DNA of 64,000 nt from Pseudomonas putida (lineage in GTDB: Bacteria > Pseudomonadota > Gammaproteobacteria > Pseudomonadales > Pseudomonadaceae). Numbering within the stretch: position 1 is the first letter of the stretch; the number at the start of each line of letters is the position of its first letter. Made by a program: the position numbers and the translations under genes. Shown here piece after piece: positions 17,531-51,603 of this stretch. Location of the stretch: NCBI RefSeq assembly GCF_005080685.1, contig NZ_CP039371.1:2604001-2668000 (forward strand), read 5' to 3'. The notes below the pieces were generated by a model that searched no databases, was not told the DNA's origin, and saw nothing but the letters and a program-made list of their open reading frames with translations.

Positions 17531-18763
17531 ATGGATTTCGCCTATTCGCCCAAGGTCCAGGCATTGCGCGAGCGTGTCAGTGCGTTCATGGATGCCCATG
17601 TGTACCCCGCCGAGCCGGTGTTCGAACGCCAGGTCGCCGAGGGTGACCGCTGGCAGCCCACCGCGATCATGGAGACGCTCAAGGCCAAGGCGCAGGCTGA
17701 AGGCCTGTGGAACCTGTTCCTGCCTGACTCGGAGTACGGCGCCGGCCTGAGCAATCTGGAATACGCACCACTGGCAGAGATCATGGGCCGTTCGTTGCTG
17801 GGGCCGGAGCCTTTCAACTGCTCGGCGCCGGATACTGGCAACATGGAGGTGCTGGTGCGCTACGGCAGCGAGGCGCAAAAGCGCCAGTGGCTGGAGCCAT
17901 TGCTGCGCGGCGAGATTCGCTCGGCATTCGCCATGACCGAGCCGGATGTGGCCTCGTCCGATGCCACCAACATGGCTGCCACCGCGCTGCGCGATGGCGA
18001 CGAGTGGGTGATCAACGGGCGCAAGTGGTGGACCTCCGGCGCGTGCGATCCGCGCTGCAAGGTCATGATCTTCATGGGCCTGTCCGACCCGCAGGCACCT
18101 CGTCATCAGCAGCACTCCATGGTGCTGGTGCCGACCGATGCGCCGGGCGTGAAGATTGTCCGGCCGTTGCCGGTATTCGGCTACGACGACGCGCCCCATG
18201 GGCATGCCGAGGTGCTGTTCGAGAACGTGCGCGTGCCCTACGAGAACGTGATTCTCGGCGAAGGCCGTGGATTCGAGATCGCCCAGGGGCGCCTCGGGCC
18301 AGGGCGTATCCACCATTGCATGCGGTCGATCGGCATGGCCGAGCGGGCGTTGGAGTTGATGTGCAAAAGGGCGGTGGCACGTACCGCGTTTGGCCGGCCA
18401 CTGGCACGACTGGGCGGCAACGTCGACAAGATCGCCGACTCGCGCATGGAGATCGACATGGCCCGGCTGTTGACGTTGAAGGCCGCGTACATGATGGATA
18501 CCGTCGGCAACAAGGTGGCACGCAGCGAGATCGCGCAGATCAAGGTGGTGGCGCCGAACGTGGCATTGAAGGTGATCGATCGGGCTATCCAGCTGCATGG
18601 TGGAGCAGGGGTGAGCGGGGATTTCCCGCTGGCCTACATGTATGCGATGCAGCGCACCCTGCGCCTGGCCGATGGACCGGACGAGGTGCACCGGGCGGCG
18701 ATTGGCAAATTTGAGATCGGCAAGTATGTGCCGGTGGAGATGTTGCGCGGCGGCAGAGGTTGA
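17531..18763 (+). CDS. Acyl-CoA dehydrogenase
   Basis: A 410-residue flavoprotein of the long-chain/FadE11-like group. [17 protein letters not shown] near residue 138 is the conserved FAD/substrate loop, [17 protein letters not shown] follows, and the C-terminal helical domain contains [14 protein letters not shown] and [36 protein letters not shown]. The start at 17531 (MDFAYSPK) has AAGGT upstream; an ATG at 17516 is weaker. Its final 117 bp (18641-18757) are repeated at 24046-24162 across the microcin-like island, so the gene's current 3' end may have been supplied by the incoming DNA. The regulator is probably the divergent LysR. Confidence 0.9.
18641..18757 (+). repeat. Island-flanking direct repeat, copy 1 (acyl-CoA dehydrogenase 3' end)
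   Basis: These 117 bp inside the acyl-CoA dehydrogenase gene match 24046-24162 with three mismatches that I can count. Between the copies lies the low-GC mcb-like island. Reading frame and stop position are retained in both copies. Confidence 0.9.
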
Positions 18764-18810
18764 GTTCAACGGTAATCAGAGGATTGCCAAAGTTAATTGC
18801 TCGTTGGGGC

Positions 18811-19512
18811 CTAGGTCGAAGCATGGACAAAGGCTTCATCAAGCGAAGCAGCTTGATGTCGAGCTAAAAATGCTTCTGTGCTTTTGAACTCCTCCAGTCG
18901 TGTTTTTGCAAGCATGTAAAAGCGATTGCAGTTGCTGGCGATTTCTTGGGTGTAATGCGAGGACACCAACACGCTTGCGCCCTCCCTGCACGCGTGTTTT
19001 ATGCCTAGCCATATGTAATGGCGGAGCTCGGGATCTACGCCTGCGGTGGGTTCGTCAAGAAGCACTAAGTCGCTATCCATCAATAGAAGCGTCAAGGTGA
19101 AGAAGCTTCGGATTTCACCATAGCTGCAAGTGGATGCTTTTTTGGTTGATAGTTGGGTGTATCTTTTTGCAAGGTCCGGAGACCACGTTGAAAGTCGTGC
19201 TGGGAAGTCCAGTGGGTCAAGGGCGGTGTGGGCGTTTAATTGCAGAATGAGTTCGGCGGCCTCGTTCATGCGTAATAGGGGGGGCGGGGTTAAAATCTGT
19301 GTCAGATAGGTTGGGCAGCGCGCTGCGTTGTTGATTGCACCATGGCAAACTTTCTTGGTTCCGCAGATAAGATCGAATAGTGTGGTTTTTCCTGCGCCGT
19401 TTATACCAAGAACTCCTACGATTTCGCCCTTGGCCAAATGTAGGTTTACCTCGTTCATTAGCGGGGTCCGATCATAGGAGAATGTGACGTCGCGCAATTG
19501 TAGTAGGCTCAT
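18811..19512 (-). CDS. mcbF: McbF-like ABC exporter ATPase
   Basis: A 233-residue ATPase. Walker A is GINGAGKTT at residues 36-44, and Walker B is LVLLDEPTAGVDP. The signature is an unusual CSYGE in place of LSGGQ. It is the last gene of the A-B-C-D-E-F order and overlaps the preceding permease gene by one base (TAATG); the ATG at 19512 was chosen for that coupling. In microcin B17, McbE and McbF export the mature peptide and give part of the producer's self-protection. GC content is well below the flanking chromosome. The gene stops 48 bases from the acyl-CoA dehydrogenase stop, convergently. Confidence 0.85.
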   Translation of the reverse strand: MSLLQLRDVTFSYDRTPLMNEVNLHLAKGEIVGVLGINGAGKTTLFDLICGTKKVCHGAINNAARCPTYLTQILTPPPLLRMNEAAELILQLNAHTALDPLDFPARLSTWSPDLAKRYTQLSTKKASTCSYGEIRSFFTLTLLLMDSDLVLLDEPTAGVDPELRHYIWLGIKHACREGASVLVSSHYTQEIASNCNRFYMLAKTRLEEFKSTEAFLARHQAASLDEAFVHAST

Positions 19513-20269
19513 TAGTATCTGCTCCAGATGGGCTGGATTCTGAAATATTTCCACGTCAAAAATAGCCCTGTGGATGCCCCGGCTACTGCAATTGGGAAGC
19601 TGAAGGTCAGGGGGATGTCCCCACTGAAAATCATTGTGGTCAAATAAATCGGGTTGATGGTAGACAAATATTTAATAGGGCTTGAGTTTTGCAGTGATCC
19701 CATATAGCCAGACAGAAGCATCCAGAATGAAAGTAGGGAAAAGAGTGTGTTCGCAGTGTTGAACTTCAAGGGCATTGCTACAATGACTAGGCCGGCACAC
19801 GAAAACAACAAATAACATGTGTAAAAGGACGCTGTAACTTGCAGGAACTCCAACGCTGAATAAGCGCCGTAGAATGGCTTGGTGACGAGGTAGAACAGCG
19901 TAGAGTAGGATAGGCTTATTAGTGAGTAACAAACAGTATGAGCGTGAAGGAAAATCTTGATTGCCATGGGTTTGTAAATGAAGGACCGTACAAATCCGCT
20001 TTCTCTTCTGCCGATGAGGTAGAAACTGAAGCCATAGAGGGCTGAGTTTGCTGCGATATACGAGTAAAACCATGCGGAGGATGAAGCGTAGTTCAACGTT
20101 TGGGGGCTTGCATCCAATTGCTCTGGATGAGAACGGTAAACATGATGCAGGGGGCTACCCCCGCCCATAAAATGGCTATTGGATCTCTGAAATGTTCTGT
20201 TAGTAAAATCTTGCTAATGATGAATGCTTTGGTCAGCGCGTGAGGTGGTTTGAAGATACTTGAGTTCAT
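19512..20269 (-). pseudogene. mcbE: McbE-like ABC exporter permease, frameshifted
   Basis: Two overlapping frames together make one ABC-2-type permease. From an ATG at 20269, which overlaps the mcbD stop as ATGA, the product runs 58 residues (including LTEHFRDPIAILWAGVAPCI, a typical first helix) to a TGA at 20093-20095. The frame one base back is open from 20168 to 19512 and encodes the other five or so helices (AWFYSYIAANSALYGF through GASTGLFLTWKYF). Restoring one base between about 20185 and 20118 would give a 252-residue protein, close to McbE size. The GGGGG and CCCCC runs there are likely sites. It may be a real mutation, programmed -1 frameshifting or a sequence error. Confidence 0.8.
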
Positions 20270-21465
20270 GGGAATGGCACCATTGTAGCTAGCCGGCTAG
20301 GGATGATTTCTCTAGAAAAATGTCCGGAGTAGAGGTTGTCGGTATTTAAGGCGAAAGAATTATTCATATGGAGAAATGTGTTTGGGGAGACGTACTTGCA
20401 AAAATAGAGAGTGGACTGTTTTGTCGGCATGGAGGTGAGGTACAGAAAACCATCAAGCTTGGTTGCTCGTATGTCATCAATAAGTGTTCGTGCAGTCAGT
20501 TGTTCGTTTTCTGAGCGGATTGATGCAGTGCTAGGGGGGAGGAGGTTGGTTGTGATGGTTTCATAGGTCTTGTAGTGATTGCACTCAATAAAGTGCTTTA
20601 GGTAGGGGTCTTTTATTTGATTGGGATAGGTGGCACCCAGTGAAAGCATGAAGCGAAAAGTCTGCCAGAGTTCGATTATGGATTTTTCCAAAGCCATGCA
20701 AAAATTGCTCGTGTATGCCATGCCTGCGCAATACTTTACTTTGGCAGCTGAGTCGTATGGATTGCCATAGCAAACTAAGAGGCAGGTGCCAGGGAATCTG
20801 GAGTCTGAAATATCTATCATGCACAATTTGCCTGAGTCATGAAGTTTCTGGAGTAATGGCAGGGCTTTGCTTTTTGATAGTATTTGGCAGGCACTGTTAT
20901 ATTCAGTGATTGTTGCGTGTTTGCTAGTGAGCCAAAAGCGAAGTAAAAATTGTCGCTCCAAGGCTTCCTTAAGTGCGCCGAGGATCGCGCTTTCTAAATG
21001 AGTGTGAGCGCTACATCCGCAAGTGTCCCGCATAGGGTAGATCTGGTTATCGATTGGGTTTCGGCATGGGGAGATTGAGACGCAGGCTGTTGGTATTTTG
21101 CAAGGGGTAAAGTCACTAATTCTATATGCATTAGTGAGGTCGAATGCGTGCGAATGAATTTCTTCAGAGGGGAGGTGGCTGGAGGTTTGTACTAGTGCGT
21201 TGACAAAAGCAGTGGTTTCTTCGGAATTTAATGTGCTGCTCAAAGTGCCCGTTGCGTGCACCGGGACGTCCAGATAGAAGTGTTTCCTCTCAAAGTACTC
21301 ACCTCCTGCCGACCTCGTTAGGTCAGATGTCCAACCACTACTGGAACCATAAGTTTCCCACCGACTTCCGCACTCCATGCTATGAGGGAGATAGGATACT
21401 GCGCTGGGTCGCAGAAACTCGAAATCACTGAATGCAGGTGTATGTATTTCATTGTATGTATTCAT
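20266..21465 (-). CDS. mcbD: YcaO cyclodehydratase, McbD-like
   Basis: A 399-residue YcaO-domain protein, nearly the length of McbD. ATP/Mg-binding elements are SAGGEYFER at residues 52-60 and HLESAILGALKEALER at 156-171; the C-terminus ends VPFP, resembling the proline-rich tails of cyclodehydrating YcaO proteins. In microcin B17 synthesis McbD, with McbB, uses ATP to cyclise Ser and Cys side chains onto the backbone, forming oxazolines and thiazolines. The gene begins 3 bases after mcbC and its stop overlaps the mcbE start as ATGA. Low GC and different codon use mark it as acquired DNA. Confidence 0.9.
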   Translation of the reverse strand: MNTYNEIHTPAFSDFEFLRPSAVSYLPHSMECGSRWETYGSSSGWTSDLTRSAGGEYFERKHFYLDVPVHATGTLSSTLNSEETTAFVNALVQTSSHLPSEEIHSHAFDLTNAYRISDFTPCKIPTACVSISPCRNPIDNQIYPMRDTCGCSAHTHLESAILGALKEALERQFLLRFWLTSKHATITEYNSACQILSKSKALPLLQKLHDSGKLCMIDISDSRFPGTCLLVCYGNPYDSAAKVKYCAGMAYTSNFCMALEKSIIELWQTFRFMLSLGATYPNQIKDPYLKHFIECNHYKTYETITTNLLPPSTASIRSENEQLTARTLIDDIRATKLDGFLYLTSMPTKQSTLYFCKYVSPNTFLHMNNSFALNTDNLYSGHFSREIIPSRLATMVPFP

Positions 21466-21468
21466 GAT

Positions 21469-22260
21469 TCACCCTATCAGTTGGACGCATGCGGGTAGAA
21501 AGAGTGTCGGGTTTAGGTCCAGATTTTTTATCAACTGGTGATCCGTGAAGCCCGACCAGATCCTGCTGTTTAGGTTTAGTTCTTTGCATCGTAAGTCCAT
21601 GAGCATGTACATTGAGCCGGCTTCTAACAAGGCGAGGCGGTACCCTCTGTAGCGATATTTGAAAACTGCTTTCGGTAGGTATAGGCAGTACACGAGCGCT
21701 AACGTTGGACTTCCGATGTTTTCATTTTCTGGAGTGATTGACTGCGATAGTTTATGGGTGTTGATATTTGGGCTGTGGGCCTCGAGTTTTCGAGATCCGG
21801 GGAGTAGATGGAGTGCGTCGGATGACGCGGGCCAGTTTTTAACCTTCTTTTCTATGTTTATGCAAAAGACTTCTATCGGGTAGATGGCCCCTCCGCTGGG
21901 ATAGCCTCTTCTATAGTTGGAGTCTTCTTTTCTAAGAAGCGGAGATAGCAATTCCTGGACGGTGCTGAAGTGCAATGGTCTGTGCGTGAAGGAGGTGCAC
22001 GAGTTGTTTCTGTTTAAATGATGGTTGAGTTGAAGTTGCTCAAGTCTGGCGGCGGCTTGGTCGTGTGGGTTGCTGAATATATCTAGTTTTAGTTCTTGGC
22101 CTGTCAGGCTTTCGAGTGCCTCTGTTGGGATGTTGTGCAGCGTACTGCAATGCTGAGTCGCCCGATGGATGGTATAGTTTCCCTTGGCGTGAAAAGCTAA
22201 GGTTTCATCAATGACATCGTGGGGCGTGAAATAGAGATATTGGTCATGAATAATACTCAT
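21469..22260 (-). CDS. mcbC: McbC-like azoline dehydrogenase
   Basis: A 263-residue FMN-dependent SagB/McbC-type oxidoreductase. RRGYPSGGAIYPIEVF at residues 117-132 is the conserved flavin-binding stretch. A Lys-Tyr pair (K201-Y202, in VFKYRYRGYRLALLEAG) corresponds to the catalytic KY motif of azoline dehydrogenases, and LEAGSMYMLMDL follows. It would oxidise azolines to aromatic thiazoles and oxazoles on the precursor peptide. The ATG at 22260 overlaps the mcbB stop as ATGA; an in-frame ATG at 22284 is less likely for that reason. Confidence 0.9.
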   Translation of the reverse strand: MSIIHDQYLYFTPHDVIDETLAFHAKGNYTIHRATQHCSTLHNIPTEALESLTGQELKLDIFSNPHDQAAARLEQLQLNHHLNRNNSCTSFTHRPLHFSTVQELLSPLLRKEDSNYRRGYPSGGAIYPIEVFCINIEKKVKNWPASSDALHLLPGSRKLEAHSPNINTHKLSQSITPENENIGSPTLALVYCLYLPKAVFKYRYRGYRLALLEAGSMYMLMDLRCKELNLNSRIWSGFTDHQLIKNLDLNPTLFLPACVQLIG

Positions 22261-23123
22261 ATTTTCGCTCCGAGACACTTGCAAAATGGCCAGTGAACAC
22301 TGCTGTCTTCAGTGAGTGCACCATTGGCTAGATTAAGGGTTCTAGACGCCAGTACTTGATCCTGAGTTGACAGGCGCTTGGCAGGCTTTGTGAGCTTATT
22401 GGTGAAAGAGATTATTGCCCCCAGAATCAATAGGCATTGTAGTTCATCAATATCGGCTTTCGGCAGGTCGAGTTTTGCTGATCGGCAGAATGACCAGACT
22501 TTGCTCCAGTGATGGTTGCTGCCCCGAATCGTTTCGTAGTAAGCGATACGGTCCAGCGTGCAGTATGCGCAAGGGTTACCAATGGCAGGAATATGTACTT
22601 CAGTAAGATGGAAGTCATTTCCGCTAACAAACCCAATGCTTGCGCCATTCTCGGGGTTATTATCCAAGATTTTTGTATAAGCCTCCCTAAGTGCTTCCGG
22701 GCTGATTTTCATATAGGCAAAAATCGTTAGCGTCGGGTGAGCTGTAGCAATGGGTTCTCTCGGCAGCACTGGGCTGATTTTCAGTTTGCCATCATATTTA
22801 TTTGTTAAAAATTCTCTGTGCGATTCGGGAATATTAAGGTCGGTATAAATGGTTGTGTCGTTAAAATGCGGTCTTTGTATCTCCTCGCCAATGACGCATA
22901 TTGATTTAAGGAAGTCGATCGCGGTATTGGGTTCCAGTTTTTCGTTTTTAAGTATTTGTTCTAGCTCATCCTGTTGCAGATGCTCTGGGCTACTTCCTTT
23001 GATGCGTTTGAGGACGTTGCTCATTTGTTTATTTGTAATTTTAGTGAGTCCCGCGCTTGTGTATAGGATGGGGTCCGATTCAAAATTAAGTATTTCGTAA
23101 TTGTAAATCTTAAGTGTTTTCAT
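22257..23123 (-). CDS. mcbB: McbB-like E1-related leader-binding protein
   Basis: A 288-residue protein resembling E. coli McbB. Zinc ligands are visible as C185-x2-C188 (GNPCAYC) and C281-x-C283 near the end (HWPFCKC), the same spacing pattern as McbB (PCHFC and HWQACSC). Residues between include WSKVWSFCRSAKLDLP and LILGAIISFTNKL, aligning with the McbB helical part. Such proteins bind the leader of McbA and present it to the YcaO partner. The gene lies downstream of the precursor gene, separated by a 10-bp hairpin, and is coupled to mcbC by ATGA. Confidence 0.88.
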   Translation of the reverse strand: MKTLKIYNYEILNFESDPILYTSAGLTKITNKQMSNVLKRIKGSSPEHLQQDELEQILKNEKLEPNTAIDFLKSICVIGEEIQRPHFNDTTIYTDLNIPESHREFLTNKYDGKLKISPVLPREPIATAHPTLTIFAYMKISPEALREAYTKILDNNPENGASIGFVSGNDFHLTEVHIPAIGNPCAYCTLDRIAYYETIRGSNHHWSKVWSFCRSAKLDLPKADIDELQCLLILGAIISFTNKLTKPAKRLSTQDQVLASRTLNLANGALTEDSSVHWPFCKCLGAKI

Positions 23124-23144
23124 GATGATTGCCTGCGTTCAAGT

Positions 23145-23172
23145 GAGTGCCGTCTAGGTGCTGACGGCACTC
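23145..23172 (-). promoter_or_regulatory. Hairpin between precursor gene and mcbB
   Basis: GAGTGCCGTC (23145-23154) and GACGGCACTC (23163-23172) form a perfect 10-bp stem with an 8-base loop, without a following U-run. It could act as an attenuator or a 3'-stabilising stem that raises precursor mRNA over enzyme mRNA. Confidence 0.55.
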
Positions 23173-23181
23173 TGTTACAAC

Positions 23182-23391
23182 TTAACAGTGGGGTTGCTCA
23201 TTGTTCTCTACGGCATTTCCGCCGCTACCACCACTTCCCCCACTTCCCCCACTGCAGCCTCCACCGCCACCGCAACCACCACTTCCGCCGCAGCCGCCTT
23301 GGCCTCCGGATCCCCCAAAGAATCCCGCTTCGAGTACAGTGGTGTTGTCTATTGGAAGTTCCAAGATGCTGACACCAAACTGCTTGTCCAT
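23182..23391 (-). CDS. mcbA: Microcin B17-like precursor peptide
   Basis: A 69-residue peptide, exactly the length of E. coli McbA. The leader starts MDKQFGVSILELPIDN; FGVSIL resembles the FGVVLS of the McbA leader recognised by McbB. The core from about residue 26 is Gly-rich with Ser at 28, 37, 47, 50, 53, 56 and Cys at 34, 40, 46, with a C46-S47 pair, followed by a non-repetitive tail NAVENNEQPHC ending in Cys69. Such Ser/Cys are converted to oxazoles/thiazoles. The ATG at 23391 has GGAGA 7 bases upstream; a longer frame to 23472 lacks this. Mature microcin B17 inhibits DNA gyrase; the target here is unproven. Confidence 0.9.
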   Translation of the reverse strand: MDKQFGVSILELPIDNTTVLEAGFFGGSGGQGGCGGSGGCGGGGGCSGGSGGSGGSGGNAVENNEQPHC

Positions 23392-24045
23392 AGTAGCTCT
23401 CCAATTATGTAATTCCTCTCCGGTGCAGAGAGGTAGTACAGGTTTAGGTGGAGATCTGTCCTCGGTCAACACTGCTTTTTATGGCTAAGTTAGTTTGGGT
23501 AAGGTTCGGGTGTTTATATATTTCGTGGCGCTGTCAGAAGAGGCCTAAGAAATGTTTTTGGCGCGTGCGTATTAGTTGGATTGACCTGGTTGTTTTGAGG
23601 GAATTGTCCTAGCTGTCTGTAGGAAGATTTTTCATTTTATGGAGTGGTTAGATTTTGTAAGACTTTTCGGTTAAAGATAAACAATGTTTCTAAATGTAAA
23701 GCAGAGGGAGTGGCGCGGATAACTAAGGTGCCGCCTATCGCTATCAAAGCGATTCCGTAGCGTTGAGATGGACCACGTCAAGGAACGGCATGCGGTTTGC
23801 GCATTGGGATGGGTCGGGGGGAGTTAGCGGTGCCAGGGGTTCTTTGGAAAGTGGCGCATTAAGAAAGTGTCAGCGACAGAAGCCGGACAATATCCGTGCC
23901 CGTCGTGGAGACGGCGTCGGTACAGAGGTAGAGCAACGCCTGAGCGAAGCTTCCATGTGAAAGTCGCAGTGCCGTTGAAAGCGAGCGCCGCCTGCACGGT
24001 GCATTGCGAACTTCGTCGGGGCGCCGAGCCTACTTCCCGCTAGCG
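23392..24045. other. Non-coding or degraded stretch upstream of the mcb-like operon
   Basis: The first ~370 bases are AT-rich and presumably hold the promoter of the minus-strand operon; I could not assign convincing -35/-10 boxes. From about 23760 the composition becomes GC-rich. The short open frames there (for example 23763-23960) have no recognisable features. I found no integrase, transposase, tRNA or pentapeptide immunity gene. It may be scrambled remnant DNA from the insertion event. Confidence 0.5.
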
Positions 24046-24165
24046 TATGCGATGCAGCGCACCCTGCGGCTGGCCGATGGACCGGACGAGGTGCACCGGG
24101 CGGCGATTGGCAAGTTTGAGATCGGCAAGTATGTGCCGGTGGAGATGTTGCGCAGCGGCAGATAA
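24031..24165 (+). pseudogene. Duplicated 3' remnant of the acyl-CoA dehydrogenase gene
   Basis: The plus strand encodes [19 protein letters not shown] and onward to a TAA at 24163-24165, repeating the last ~40 codons of the acyl-CoA dehydrogenase at 17531-18763. The 117-bp core (24046-24162) has three mismatches; upstream similarity continues briefly (TTCCCGCT) with two codons missing, then ends. It ends in SGR-stop where the upstream copy ends GGRG-stop. A strong hairpin directly follows. This looks like the displaced original 3' end of the gene. Confidence 0.85.
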
Positions 24166-24220: not shown

Positions 24221-25573
24221 TCATTGTGTTTTCAGGTCCACCACCAAATCCTGGGCTGCCTTGGTGGCCAACACGCTCATCAGTTTGCTCATTTCGTCCT
24301 GGCGTCCAACGCCCGTGTCGGCACTGCCCATCATCACGTTCGGCACAGGCGCCCGGGCAGCGGCATCGGCCCATGCCCGGTTTATCTCGACGAGCGCCTC
24401 TAGCTTGGTCTGCAGCGCGCCATCGGCCTTGAGTTGCGCTTCACGAGCATACGCTTCGGCATCGGCGGAGATCTTGGTGGCTTCGGCGTTGACTCGCGCG
24501 GTATCGCGCAGTAACTCGGCGGTTTGCTTATCGATCTCGGCTCGGCGATTTTCCCGCTCCGCGTTGATCAAGGTAAGCTGCTTCTCCGTTTCAGCCTCGG
24601 TGGTACGCTCAATCTGCTGGCGTAGGCTTTCCTGTCGTTTAGCTTCGACATCTTTTGCGCCGCGAGCGGAAACGAGTTCTTTCTCCTCTTCTTCCTTTAA
24701 CCGATTTTGACGAGCCACCGCCAGTTCCGCCTGGGCTTGTTGCACGCGTACCATACGCTCCTGAAACTGCGGATTAGGGTTGATATGGGTAACGCGAGCA
24801 TCAACGACTTCCACACCGAACAGGCGGAATTGCTGCGGTTTGCGCAGCTCCTGGCCATTTTTGTCTAGCCGCTTCTCGATCACGAAGCGGGTTGCGGTAT
24901 TGTCACCGAAGCTACCTTGGTTGGTGCCGGACTGTAGGATGGCGGTTTGGGACGGCAGGTGGTCTCGGCTGATGCGAATTTCTTTGCGACTGGTCAGGTA
25001 AAGCCCGTTGCGCAATTGATTTTCGAATTCCGCCCCAAAGTGACTACGGTTGCCCGAATAGTAATCATCGGCGCTCATCAGCGAGGCGGTTGCTTGCAGG
25101 GTTTCCTTCACGGCAGGGAGCAATGCTCGTTGCAAGAAGTTTTCCGGCGTTCGGTATTCCTGCGCAATTTTCAGGAACGCTTCGTTTGACGGTAGACGAA
25201 ACTGTGTGCTGAATTCAGCCTTTGCATCCACATTGCCGAGAAATACGATCGGTAGGTTGTCCAGCACGGCGGAGTGTAGTAATCCTGGTGCGCCTTGCTG
25301 GTCATCCGTCTGCAGTGATGATTGAACGCCTATTGTCCGTCGCCAGGCAGTGCTGCGACCGAACCATTTGGTGGCGTAACCTACATCCTCTACCACCTTC
25401 TCTTCCCCGAAAATTGTCCGTACGTGGGCCATTTGCCCCGCTTCGTTGTAGAAGAAGACCTCATCGAACAGCAAGGCAGAGCCTCCGCCGATTACGAGTG
25501 GTAGAGCGATCATCATCACCAGCTTCCTGCTGACGCGCAGTTTGCTGAAATCCGGCTTGGATAGTTCTTGCAT
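24221..25573 (-). CDS. SPFH/band-7 domain membrane protein
   Basis: A 450-residue protein with an N-terminal membrane anchor (residues ~18-37, LVMMIALPLVIGGGSALLF). A prohibitin/stomatin-like SPFH domain follows, including FGVEVVDARVTHINPNPQFQERM near residue 255. A long charged coiled coil (about 265-385) is rich in Ala, Glu, Arg and Lys. Such proteins form large membrane-bound rings with chaperone or protease-partner roles. No NfeD partner is adjacent. GC content appears lower than the flanking chromosome though higher than the mcb island, so it may be separately acquired. Function unknown. Confidence 0.75.
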   Translation of the reverse strand: MQELSKPDFSKLRVSRKLVMMIALPLVIGGGSALLFDEVFFYNEAGQMAHVRTIFGEEKVVEDVGYATKWFGRSTAWRRTIGVQSSLQTDDQQGAPGLLHSAVLDNLPIVFLGNVDAKAEFSTQFRLPSNEAFLKIAQEYRTPENFLQRALLPAVKETLQATASLMSADDYYSGNRSHFGAEFENQLRNGLYLTSRKEIRISRDHLPSQTAILQSGTNQGSFGDNTATRFVIEKRLDKNGQELRKPQQFRLFGVEVVDARVTHINPNPQFQERMVRVQQAQAELAVARQNRLKEEEEKELVSARGAKDVEAKRQESLRQQIERTTEAETEKQLTLINAERENRRAEIDKQTAELLRDTARVNAEATKISADAEAYAREAQLKADGALQTKLEALVEINRAWADAAARAPVPNVMMGSADTGVGRQDEMSKLMSVLATKAAQDLVVDLKTQ

Positions 25574-32296: not shown

Positions 32297-32654
32297 GGTT
32301 ACGCCCTCGTTGCTTTTGTTATTCGAGGCGGGGCTATTTGTCTTGCGCCCGCCAACTGTGTTCGGGGAGCAGCTTTTACAAAGTGTTTTTGGCCGTTTGT
32401 GATTGTAGGTGCCGGCCTGCAGTTTTAAGGTTTACGGGATATCATATTATGGTATTCCAAACTTTTCGCAAGAGGCAGGAGGCGACCGGCCATCACTCTG
32501 CGACAGGTTGGGTCGATCTAACCCTGTGGGAGCGGCCTTGTGTCGCGAAAGGGCCGCAAAGCGGCCCCGACAATTTCGGTAGTAATGCATAGCTGGCTGG
32601 GGCCGCGCTGCGGCCCTTTCGCGACACAAGGCCGCTCCCACAGGTTCCGCTACC
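32297..32654. other. Intergenic region with promoter and REPIN
   Basis: Between the ribBA paralogue stop and the binding-protein start. It contains an AT-rich stretch at 32440-32462 (ATATCATATTATGGTATTCC), likely promoter/operator DNA, and a large REPIN at 32523-32644. No gene is seen. Confidence 0.6.
32523..32644. repeat. REPIN (paired inverted REP elements)
   Basis: Two 35-bp arms (32523-32557 and 32610-32644) are perfect reverse complements; each contains GGGAGCGGCC next to TGTGTCGCGAAAGGGCCGC. The spacer has further pairing (GGGGCCGC). This is a typical doublet spread by RAYT transposases. Confidence 0.9.
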
Positions 32655-50610: not shown

Positions 50611-50627
50611 TTTCGGCTGGCTGTCAT

Positions 50628-50720
50628 GGCCTCTTCGCGGGCAAGCCCGCTCCCACAGGTACAGCACAGGTTTCGAAGCTGCACGATCCCTGTGGGAGCG
50701 GGCTTGCCCGCGAAGAGGCC
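50628..50720. repeat. REPIN (paired inverted REP elements)
   Basis: Two 32-bp arms, 50628-50659 and 50689-50720, are perfect reverse complements containing GCGGGCAAGCCCGC, separated by 29 bases. They lie between convergent genes. Confidence 0.9.
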
Positions 50721-50733
50721 ATAACGGCCATCC

Positions 50734-51603
50734 TCAACGCTTGGTCAATGCCCCGACAATCAGCCCGACACTGGCCTTGAGCCCCGCCAGCGCGTCCTCC
50801 GGGTCGCTTTCCACCACGACCAGCTTCACCCCGGCCGCCTTGATCACCTCAGCCACCGCCGCATCCGGCTGGCGATGGTCGATGACCAGCGCGACATCCT
50901 GGGTTTTCAGGTTCTCGCCCAGCGCCTCGAGCGTCGCCTTGTCCCACTTGCCGTCGGCAGGCAGCGGCGGGTCCACCACATCCAGGTTCATCCCGCTGGC
51001 CAGGTAGCCAAGGCGTTCGGACAGGCTGACCACGGTCAGGTTATCGACCTCGGCCAAACGGGTCTGGCTGCTGGCGCTGAGCTCCAGCAACTGGCGCTTG
51101 ATCCCTGCCAGGTTACCCTGGATTTTCGCCTTGTCGGCAGGCGCCAGACGCTCCAGGTCATTGGCGAGCACGTCTGCCATGCGCCCGAGGTTGGTCGGGT
51201 TCAGCCACGGAAACGCCTCGTAGGCATCGTCGCCGCTCACCGCGATGCCGGGCAATGCACCATCTACCGGACGCGCCGCATCGATTTCGACGATGCGGAT
51301 GTTGCTGCGCCGCGCCATGGGGTACAGCGGATCGTCACGCCAGATCGAGCGTACGCCGATCACGGCGTCGGCCTGGGTGGCCGCCTTGGCCAGGCTGGCA
51401 CCGCCACGGCTGCTGAAGTACGACGGCTGGCGGCTGGCCGGCAGATTGGCCGGGGCGGCGCGCTTGAGTTCCACCGAGGTGCCGTCGAGCAGCGTACTGG
51501 CCAGGCTATGCGTGACCGGCAGGGTGGTCAGCACCTGGGTGGCGAAGGTCAGGGACGGCAGGCCGGCCAGGGCCAGCGCCAGGGTAAGGCGTTTGAGGTT
51601 CAT
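50734..51603 (-). CDS. fpvF: Periplasmic metal-binding protein FpvF
   Basis: A 289-residue exported protein, signal peptide ending TFA (about 21). It resembles ZnuA-like metal binders (VLTTLPVTHSLASTLLDGTSVEL; DVALVIDHRQPDAAVAEVIKAAGVKLVVV) but is atypical. By operon order (fpvGHJKCDEF) it corresponds to FpvF, which with FpvC binds ferripyoverdine or iron in the periplasm and aids release. The ATG at 51603 overlaps fpvE (ATGA). Last gene of the operon. Confidence 0.85.
   Translation of the reverse strand: MNLKRLTLALALAGLPSLTFATQVLTTLPVTHSLASTLLDGTSVELKRAAPANLPASRQPSYFSSRGGASLAKAATQADAVIGVRSIWRDDPLYPMARRSNIRIVEIDAARPVDGALPGIAVSGDDAYEAFPWLNPTNLGRMADVLANDLERLAPADKAKIQGNLAGIKRQLLELSASSQTRLAEVDNLTVVSLSERLGYLASGMNLDVVDPPLPADGKWDKATLEALGENLKTQDVALVIDHRQPDAAVAEVIKAAGVKLVVVESDPEDALAGLKASVGLIVGALTKR

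Follow-up and report, generated by a model that had tools for sequence, protein, structure and literature searches.

A microcin-B17-type gene cluster with a split mcbE gene in Pseudomonas putida

Does the Pseudomonas putida chromosome considered here encode a complete and novel producer of a microcin B17-like peptide, or does it carry a further copy of a cluster kind already known in Pseudomonas, and is such a copy likely to work? The locus in question lies on the minus strand, from 23391 to 18811, of a 64,000-nucleotide stretch of contig NZ_CP039371.1 (positions 2,604,001 to 2,668,000; hereafter the window). A first-pass annotation had placed a complete microcin B17-type cluster there and proposed it as a candidate new variant on account of its core, its tail and the lack of McbG.

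Gene content of the cluster and its family matches

The genes of the window cluster, all on the minus strand, follow one another in the order A-B-C-D-E-F and are coupled or nearly so, as the first-pass annotation had said in likening them to E. coli mcb: B/C, D/E and E/F overlap, a few bases separate C from D, and the spacing between A and B is 58 nt. The mcbA-like precursor (23182..23391) is indeed the Gly/Ser/Cys peptide of 69 residues described earlier, with 25 Gly, 7 Ser and 4 Cys; it comprises a leader, a Gly-rich core holding 6 of the Ser and 3 of the Cys, and the tail NAVENNEQPHC. Its assignment as the precursor was made by position, length and similarity. It matches a Klebsiella microcin B17 precursor at 51% over 63 residues and has 49 database relatives, and its score with NCBIfam NF041037 is 16.7 bits, below the cut-off of 70.

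The three putative synthetase subunits resemble those of the solved E. coli microcin B17 synthetase, 6GOS. The McbB-like protein (22257..23123, 288 aa) has the two Cys pairs that had been noticed, C185xxC188 and C281xC283; it scores 140.2 bits with TIGR04424 in the NCBIfam scan, against a curated cut-off of 65, and 6GOS is its only PDB sequence match at E ≤ 0.001 (E 1.2e-9). For the McbC-like dehydrogenase (21469..22260, 263 aa), 6GOS_C is the best of five PDB matches at the same threshold (E 1.6e-40), and the Lys201-Tyr202 motif, correctly singled out before, falls in a stretch, FKYRYRGYR, that aligns with the same one in E. coli McbC. Two models left this protein below cut-off, PF00881 (22 bits, cut-off 23.5) and the SagB model (62.1, cut-off 78.4); in the Pfam and NCBIfam scans McbC began two codons after its ATG, while the PDB search had the full-length protein. 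The McbD-like protein (20266..21465, 399 aa) is a YcaO protein, as proposed: it scores 54.4 bits with PF02624 in Pfam (cut-off 25.7), so that McbB and the YcaO protein, which were among the five proteins proposed for an HMM check, both have family matches over cut-off. Its only PDB sequence match at E ≤ 0.001 is 6GOS_D (E 1.8e-51), and it ends in Pro, as E. coli McbD does; the NCBIfam YcaO models TIGR00702 and TIGR03604 stayed below their cut-offs.

Of the permease and ATPase read from the sequence earlier, the ATPase stands. The McbF-like ABC ATPase (18811..19512, 233 aa) scores 54.2 bits with PF00005 in Pfam (cut-off 25) and is 31% identical to Klebsiella McbF. The permease gene, by contrast, is two overlapping open frames: a first piece of 58 aa (20093..20269), which matches the McbE N-termini of relatives, and a second open frame of 218 aa (19512..20168), inside whose stop the mcbF start falls. 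No permease model in the Pfam and NCBIfam scans matched either piece. Since the precursor, McbC and NCBIfam YcaO models remained under cut-off and no permease model matched, position and pairwise similarity carry those assignments; the E-values of the family and structure matches of the cluster are far beyond chance.

Judged from its sequence, the locus is a microcin-B17-type linear azol(in)e peptide cluster with a broken mcbE. The assignment as a thiazole/oxazole-peptide locus is supported by the family models, by the solved synthetase and by the gene order in 24 related loci. A, B, C, D and F are all open frames, but for this assembly the claim of completeness is refuted by the frame break in mcbE. 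Of the pair for export and self-protection, McbF is open and mcbE lies in two frames.

Core type, McbG and the known relatives

Compared with the mcbABCDEFG operon of E. coli and Klebsiella, our yardstick, the window cluster is alike in the order of A to F, the 69-aa precursor, the homology of McbB, McbC and McbD, the Lys201-Tyr202 motif and the tight junctions. It differs in that no mcbG was found and mcbE is frame-broken, and two features of the E. coli/Klebsiella core, the first Ser-Cys pair and the GGQGGGCGGC stretch, are missing from its own. Its McbB to McbF are 23-34% identical to those of Klebsiella.

Cores were compared across 76 rows of precursors, made up of 49 database hits, 26 loci and the window; the rows are not independent, because some loci repeat database hits. 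Counted so as to permit a single substitution at one position (the case of L050), the core type GGCGGSGGCGGGGGC is found in 71 of them; one row has the E. coli type and four have neither. GGCGGSGGCGGGGGC is the prevailing type among the Pseudomonas loci and database relatives examined, including a database precursor labelled P. syringae (P0146). Of the 71 cores, 42 have Ser after the third Cys, 21 have Asn and 8 have Lys, and the window core keeps the Cys-Ser pair at this place. In full, the 33-residue window core occurs in no other row, L047 being one residue off. The C-terminal Cys of the window tail is also present in P0121, a precursor labelled P. guariconensis, and in the L052 precursor, which is identical to it.

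The absence of McbG, also part of the first-pass annotation, was borne out by the two queries used. In the window, Klebsiella McbG found no counterpart, its best hit (E 1.6) lying away from the cluster and none behind mcbF; in the genome, neither PF00805 nor Klebsiella McbG found a match, which sets the locus apart from the seven-gene operon of the E. coli type. Among the 29 genomes with an McbB match, Klebsiella McbG has a match at E ≤ 0.001 in five, a good one only in G317 (E 2.4e-15). There the McbG-like gene follows the end of an mcbF-like gene on the same contig, and the G317 precursor, at locus L032 on another contig, has the only E. coli-type core of the 76 rows. That the only good McbG match coincides with the sole genome having this core would fit a link between core type and the need for McbG, although a single genome is no proof. 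Klebsiella McbG had no match in any of the 28 loci taken from other Pseudomonas genomes, and a home-made pentapeptide pattern, for which there was no positive control, found nothing in these loci or in the window stretch. Pfam pentapeptide proteins occur in 27 of the 29 genomes, none of them at the cluster among the matches listed.

A resistant gyrase was considered as another means of protection. GyrB of this genome keeps the Trp in NPDQLWETT, which we take to be W751 of the E. coli resistance work, so at this residue, the only one looked at, the strain is unchanged.

Microcin B-like compounds of P. syringae were reportedly described by Metelev et al. in 2013. The window cluster shares with them a microcin-B-type operon in Pseudomonas and, through P0146, the core type. 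According to the portion of PMC8719888 available to us, P. syringae microcin B-like clusters do have McbG, while a McbG homologue is encoded in none of the strains of that study, whose microcin B17-like clusters comprise McbA to McbF. By this description the window cluster is alike in having McbA to McbF and no McbG in a Pseudomonas genome, with a reservation on mcbE, which is split in the window. Excerpts of PMC4603692 place such clusters in P. syringae, P. putida and P. fluorescens and call Pseudomonas precursors considerably more divergent, and an excerpt of PMC3390384 reports a related region in strain A506. Given these precedents, the locus is a further member of a McbG-less Pseudomonas microcin-B kind already in print. 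The proposal of a new variant is therefore not supported: the core type is the common one, the C-terminal Cys recurs elsewhere, and McbG-less Pseudomonas clusters are described in the part of PMC8719888 considered here.

The mcbE break, the related loci and the genomic island

The split of mcbE is unusual among relatives. With an McbE relative as query, the whole genome gave two places only, which adjoin each other in different frames and are the two mcbE pieces; no second McbE was found in this search. In all 24 related loci that match B to F, mcbE is one open frame of 242-292 aa, and programmed frameshifting was for this reason thought unlikely. A public 1,439-base contig holds an intact McbE relative of 252 aa (P0001), 98% identical to the larger window piece over 91% of that piece; as it is in one frame, mcbE does have intact copies. 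The assembly, in 2 contigs, has a completeness rating of 100%. Comparison with relatives showed a single frame for each of twelve apparent flanking genes, which were chosen by eye; two further comparisons, antisense to two of them, gave mixed frames and were left out of account. This speaks against a generally poor assembly and leaves room for one isolated error. According to the portions of PMC10912980 and PMC3622597 available to us, McbE and McbF export the peptide and protect its maker. As the frame break splits mcbE in this assembly, the cluster has probably lost export and self-protection or has them in reduced form, unless the break is a sequencing error; this copy is an ordinary one, perhaps without function.

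Of 398 Pseudomonas genomes sampled, including that of the window, 29 have an McbB match at E ≤ 0.001, and 26 of these score over the curated cut-off. Of the 28 loci fetched from the other genomes, 24 match B, C, D, E and F; L032 stops at a contig edge, and L056, L057 and L058 are remnants. Each of the 24 keeps the order B to F and has a precursor-like frame ahead of B. The closest loci, L050, L052, L053 and L054, show 49-66% identity in B, C, D and F and have the same core type (with the one substitution in L050) but, unlike the window cluster, an unbroken mcbE frame. A tree built from B+C+D of 22 clusters (the window, Klebsiella and 20 relatives, after four relatives with broken or split genes were dropped) groups the window with L050 and L053 at support 0.945; L052 and L054 join more weakly (0.708 and 0.826), and L051 joins with 1.000. 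The McbB scan of genome contigs also returned one remote Bacteroidia locus, L002, at 40% over 49 residues. At the DNA level, a plasmid search with the whole island as query gave no match.

Decay in the related loci takes a different course. B or D is broken in 4 of the 24 (an internal stop in B of L034 and in D of L042; D in two frames in L041 and L049), and C, E and F are open in all. In the remnants L056 and L058 a fragment of B is accompanied by E- and F-like genes, with a short E of 217 aa in L056, as if self-protection had outlived synthesis; L057 has a B fragment only. L058 further contains a precursor-like frame, though not with the usual core. Relatives thus appear to lose synthesis genes while E and F mostly stay; the window cluster shows the opposite pattern, with synthesis genes that look intact and self-protection that looks impaired.

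The cluster occupies a stretch of GC content 0.474 (18764-24044), against 0.635 in the rest of the window, and this stretch is flanked by a 118-bp direct repeat. The left copy (18640..18757) forms the 3' end of a gene for an acyl-CoA dehydrogenase that has a match in 118 of 119 genomes of the genus, and the right copy (24045..24162) is 97% identical to the left one. In L082, the dehydrogenase gene is followed by a short spacer and then by the sequence found in the window from 25836 on. The right repeat copy aligns into this spacer, the alignment running on to 24212, and L082 has neither the mcb genes nor the gene found in the window at 24221-25573 at this place. From these features the mcb cluster was probably acquired horizontally. 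Since no acyl-CoA dehydrogenase gene is found within the fetched stretch of any of the 28 mcb loci, the site is not common to them. Behind this gene L080, L081 and L084 also differ from L082 and L083, so the site looks variable.

The gene at 24221-25573, between the right repeat copy and the L082-shared sequence, encodes 450 aa; 2 of 37 other genomes have a match covering most of it, and L081 has the gene as well. Just inside the right end of the island, at 23959-24011, lies a short REP-like sequence, roughly 35-50 bp long, that recurs at 18 other places in the genome. The window stretches 32522-32647 and 50618-50736 gave short matches to the flanking loci of relatives on both strands and are probably inverted repeats. 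No tRNA was found in the 64-kb window; a promoter scan gave 6 against 6.2 expected, and terminators numbered 8 against 5.6, counts that are uninformative.

Competing readings and their implications

We are quite confident that the locus is a McbG-less Pseudomonas microcin-B-type azol(in)e cluster, probably of horizontal origin, with a split mcbE and most likely silent or decaying, unless the break is a sequencing error. In such a cluster, going by family and conserved residues, McbB, McbC and McbD would convert Ser and Cys of the Gly-rich McbA core to oxazoles and thiazoles. Chromosomal TldD/TldE-type proteases would remove the leader; three PF01523 places of the TldD/PmbA family score over cut-off in the genome as candidates. 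By analogy with microcin B17, McbE and McbF would export the peptide and protect its maker, and the peptide would poison the DNA gyrase of related bacteria; the frame break would probably abolish or reduce export and self-protection, leaving the locus most likely silent or decaying. The matches, the conserved residues, the B-F order with a precursor-like frame ahead of B, the tree, the TldD places, the split mcbE beside a near relative in one frame, the lack of a second McbE and of PF00805 or Klebsiella McbG matches in the genome, the GC content and the repeat all argue for this account. Against it count the precursor model and the two McbC-type models under their cut-offs, and the open frames of A, B, C, D and F, which are odd for a dead cluster.

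Those open frames would be expected if the break were a sequencing or assembly error in a fully working cluster, a reading that would exclude only the decay part of the account just given and to which we allow a substantial, though less than even, chance. It gains from the relatives, all 24 of whose loci have E open, including those with a broken B or D, so that a maker without E would be unexpected, and from the single frame of the relative 98% identical to the larger mcbE piece; the twelve unbroken flanking genes and the completeness of the two-contig genome speak against it. Should the break be real, the peptide might still be made by a strain protected otherwise, through low gyrase sensitivity, lack of uptake or another exporter. 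This seems unlikely to us. The synthesis genes are open, the core is unlike the E. coli one, and the one SbmA/BacA-domain gene found in the genome lies in a 622-aa open frame, longer than E. coli SbmA, so uptake may be poor; but the GyrB Trp is kept, and with mcbF starting inside the mcbE stop the break may also lower McbF. It is quite improbable that the product is a different azole peptide, distantly microcin B17-like, with another target such as the ribosome or the membrane. The missing first Ser-Cys pair, the Asn or Lys in place of Ser after the third Cys in 29 of the 71 cores and the missed cut-off of the precursor family model would suit such a peptide, but the E. coli synthetase is the only or the best solved relative of B, C and D, and the window core retains its Cys-Ser pair.

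With the silent or decaying cluster as our preferred reading, the picture of a complete, new variant is corrected to a known cluster kind with a broken exporter/self-protection gene. We give very little credence to the boldest view, that of a genuine break in a strain producing a Pseudomonas-type microcin B with neither McbG nor a whole McbE. If such a maker were real, its self-protection would be independent of the known pair of exporter and gyrase shield. The common Pseudomonas core, without the first Ser-Cys pair and, in those 29 rows, without Cys-Ser at the third Cys, might differ from E. coli microcin B17 in potency or site. A living maker in which the split mcbE proved genuine would allow a direct test of self-protection against McbG-less microcin B peptides.
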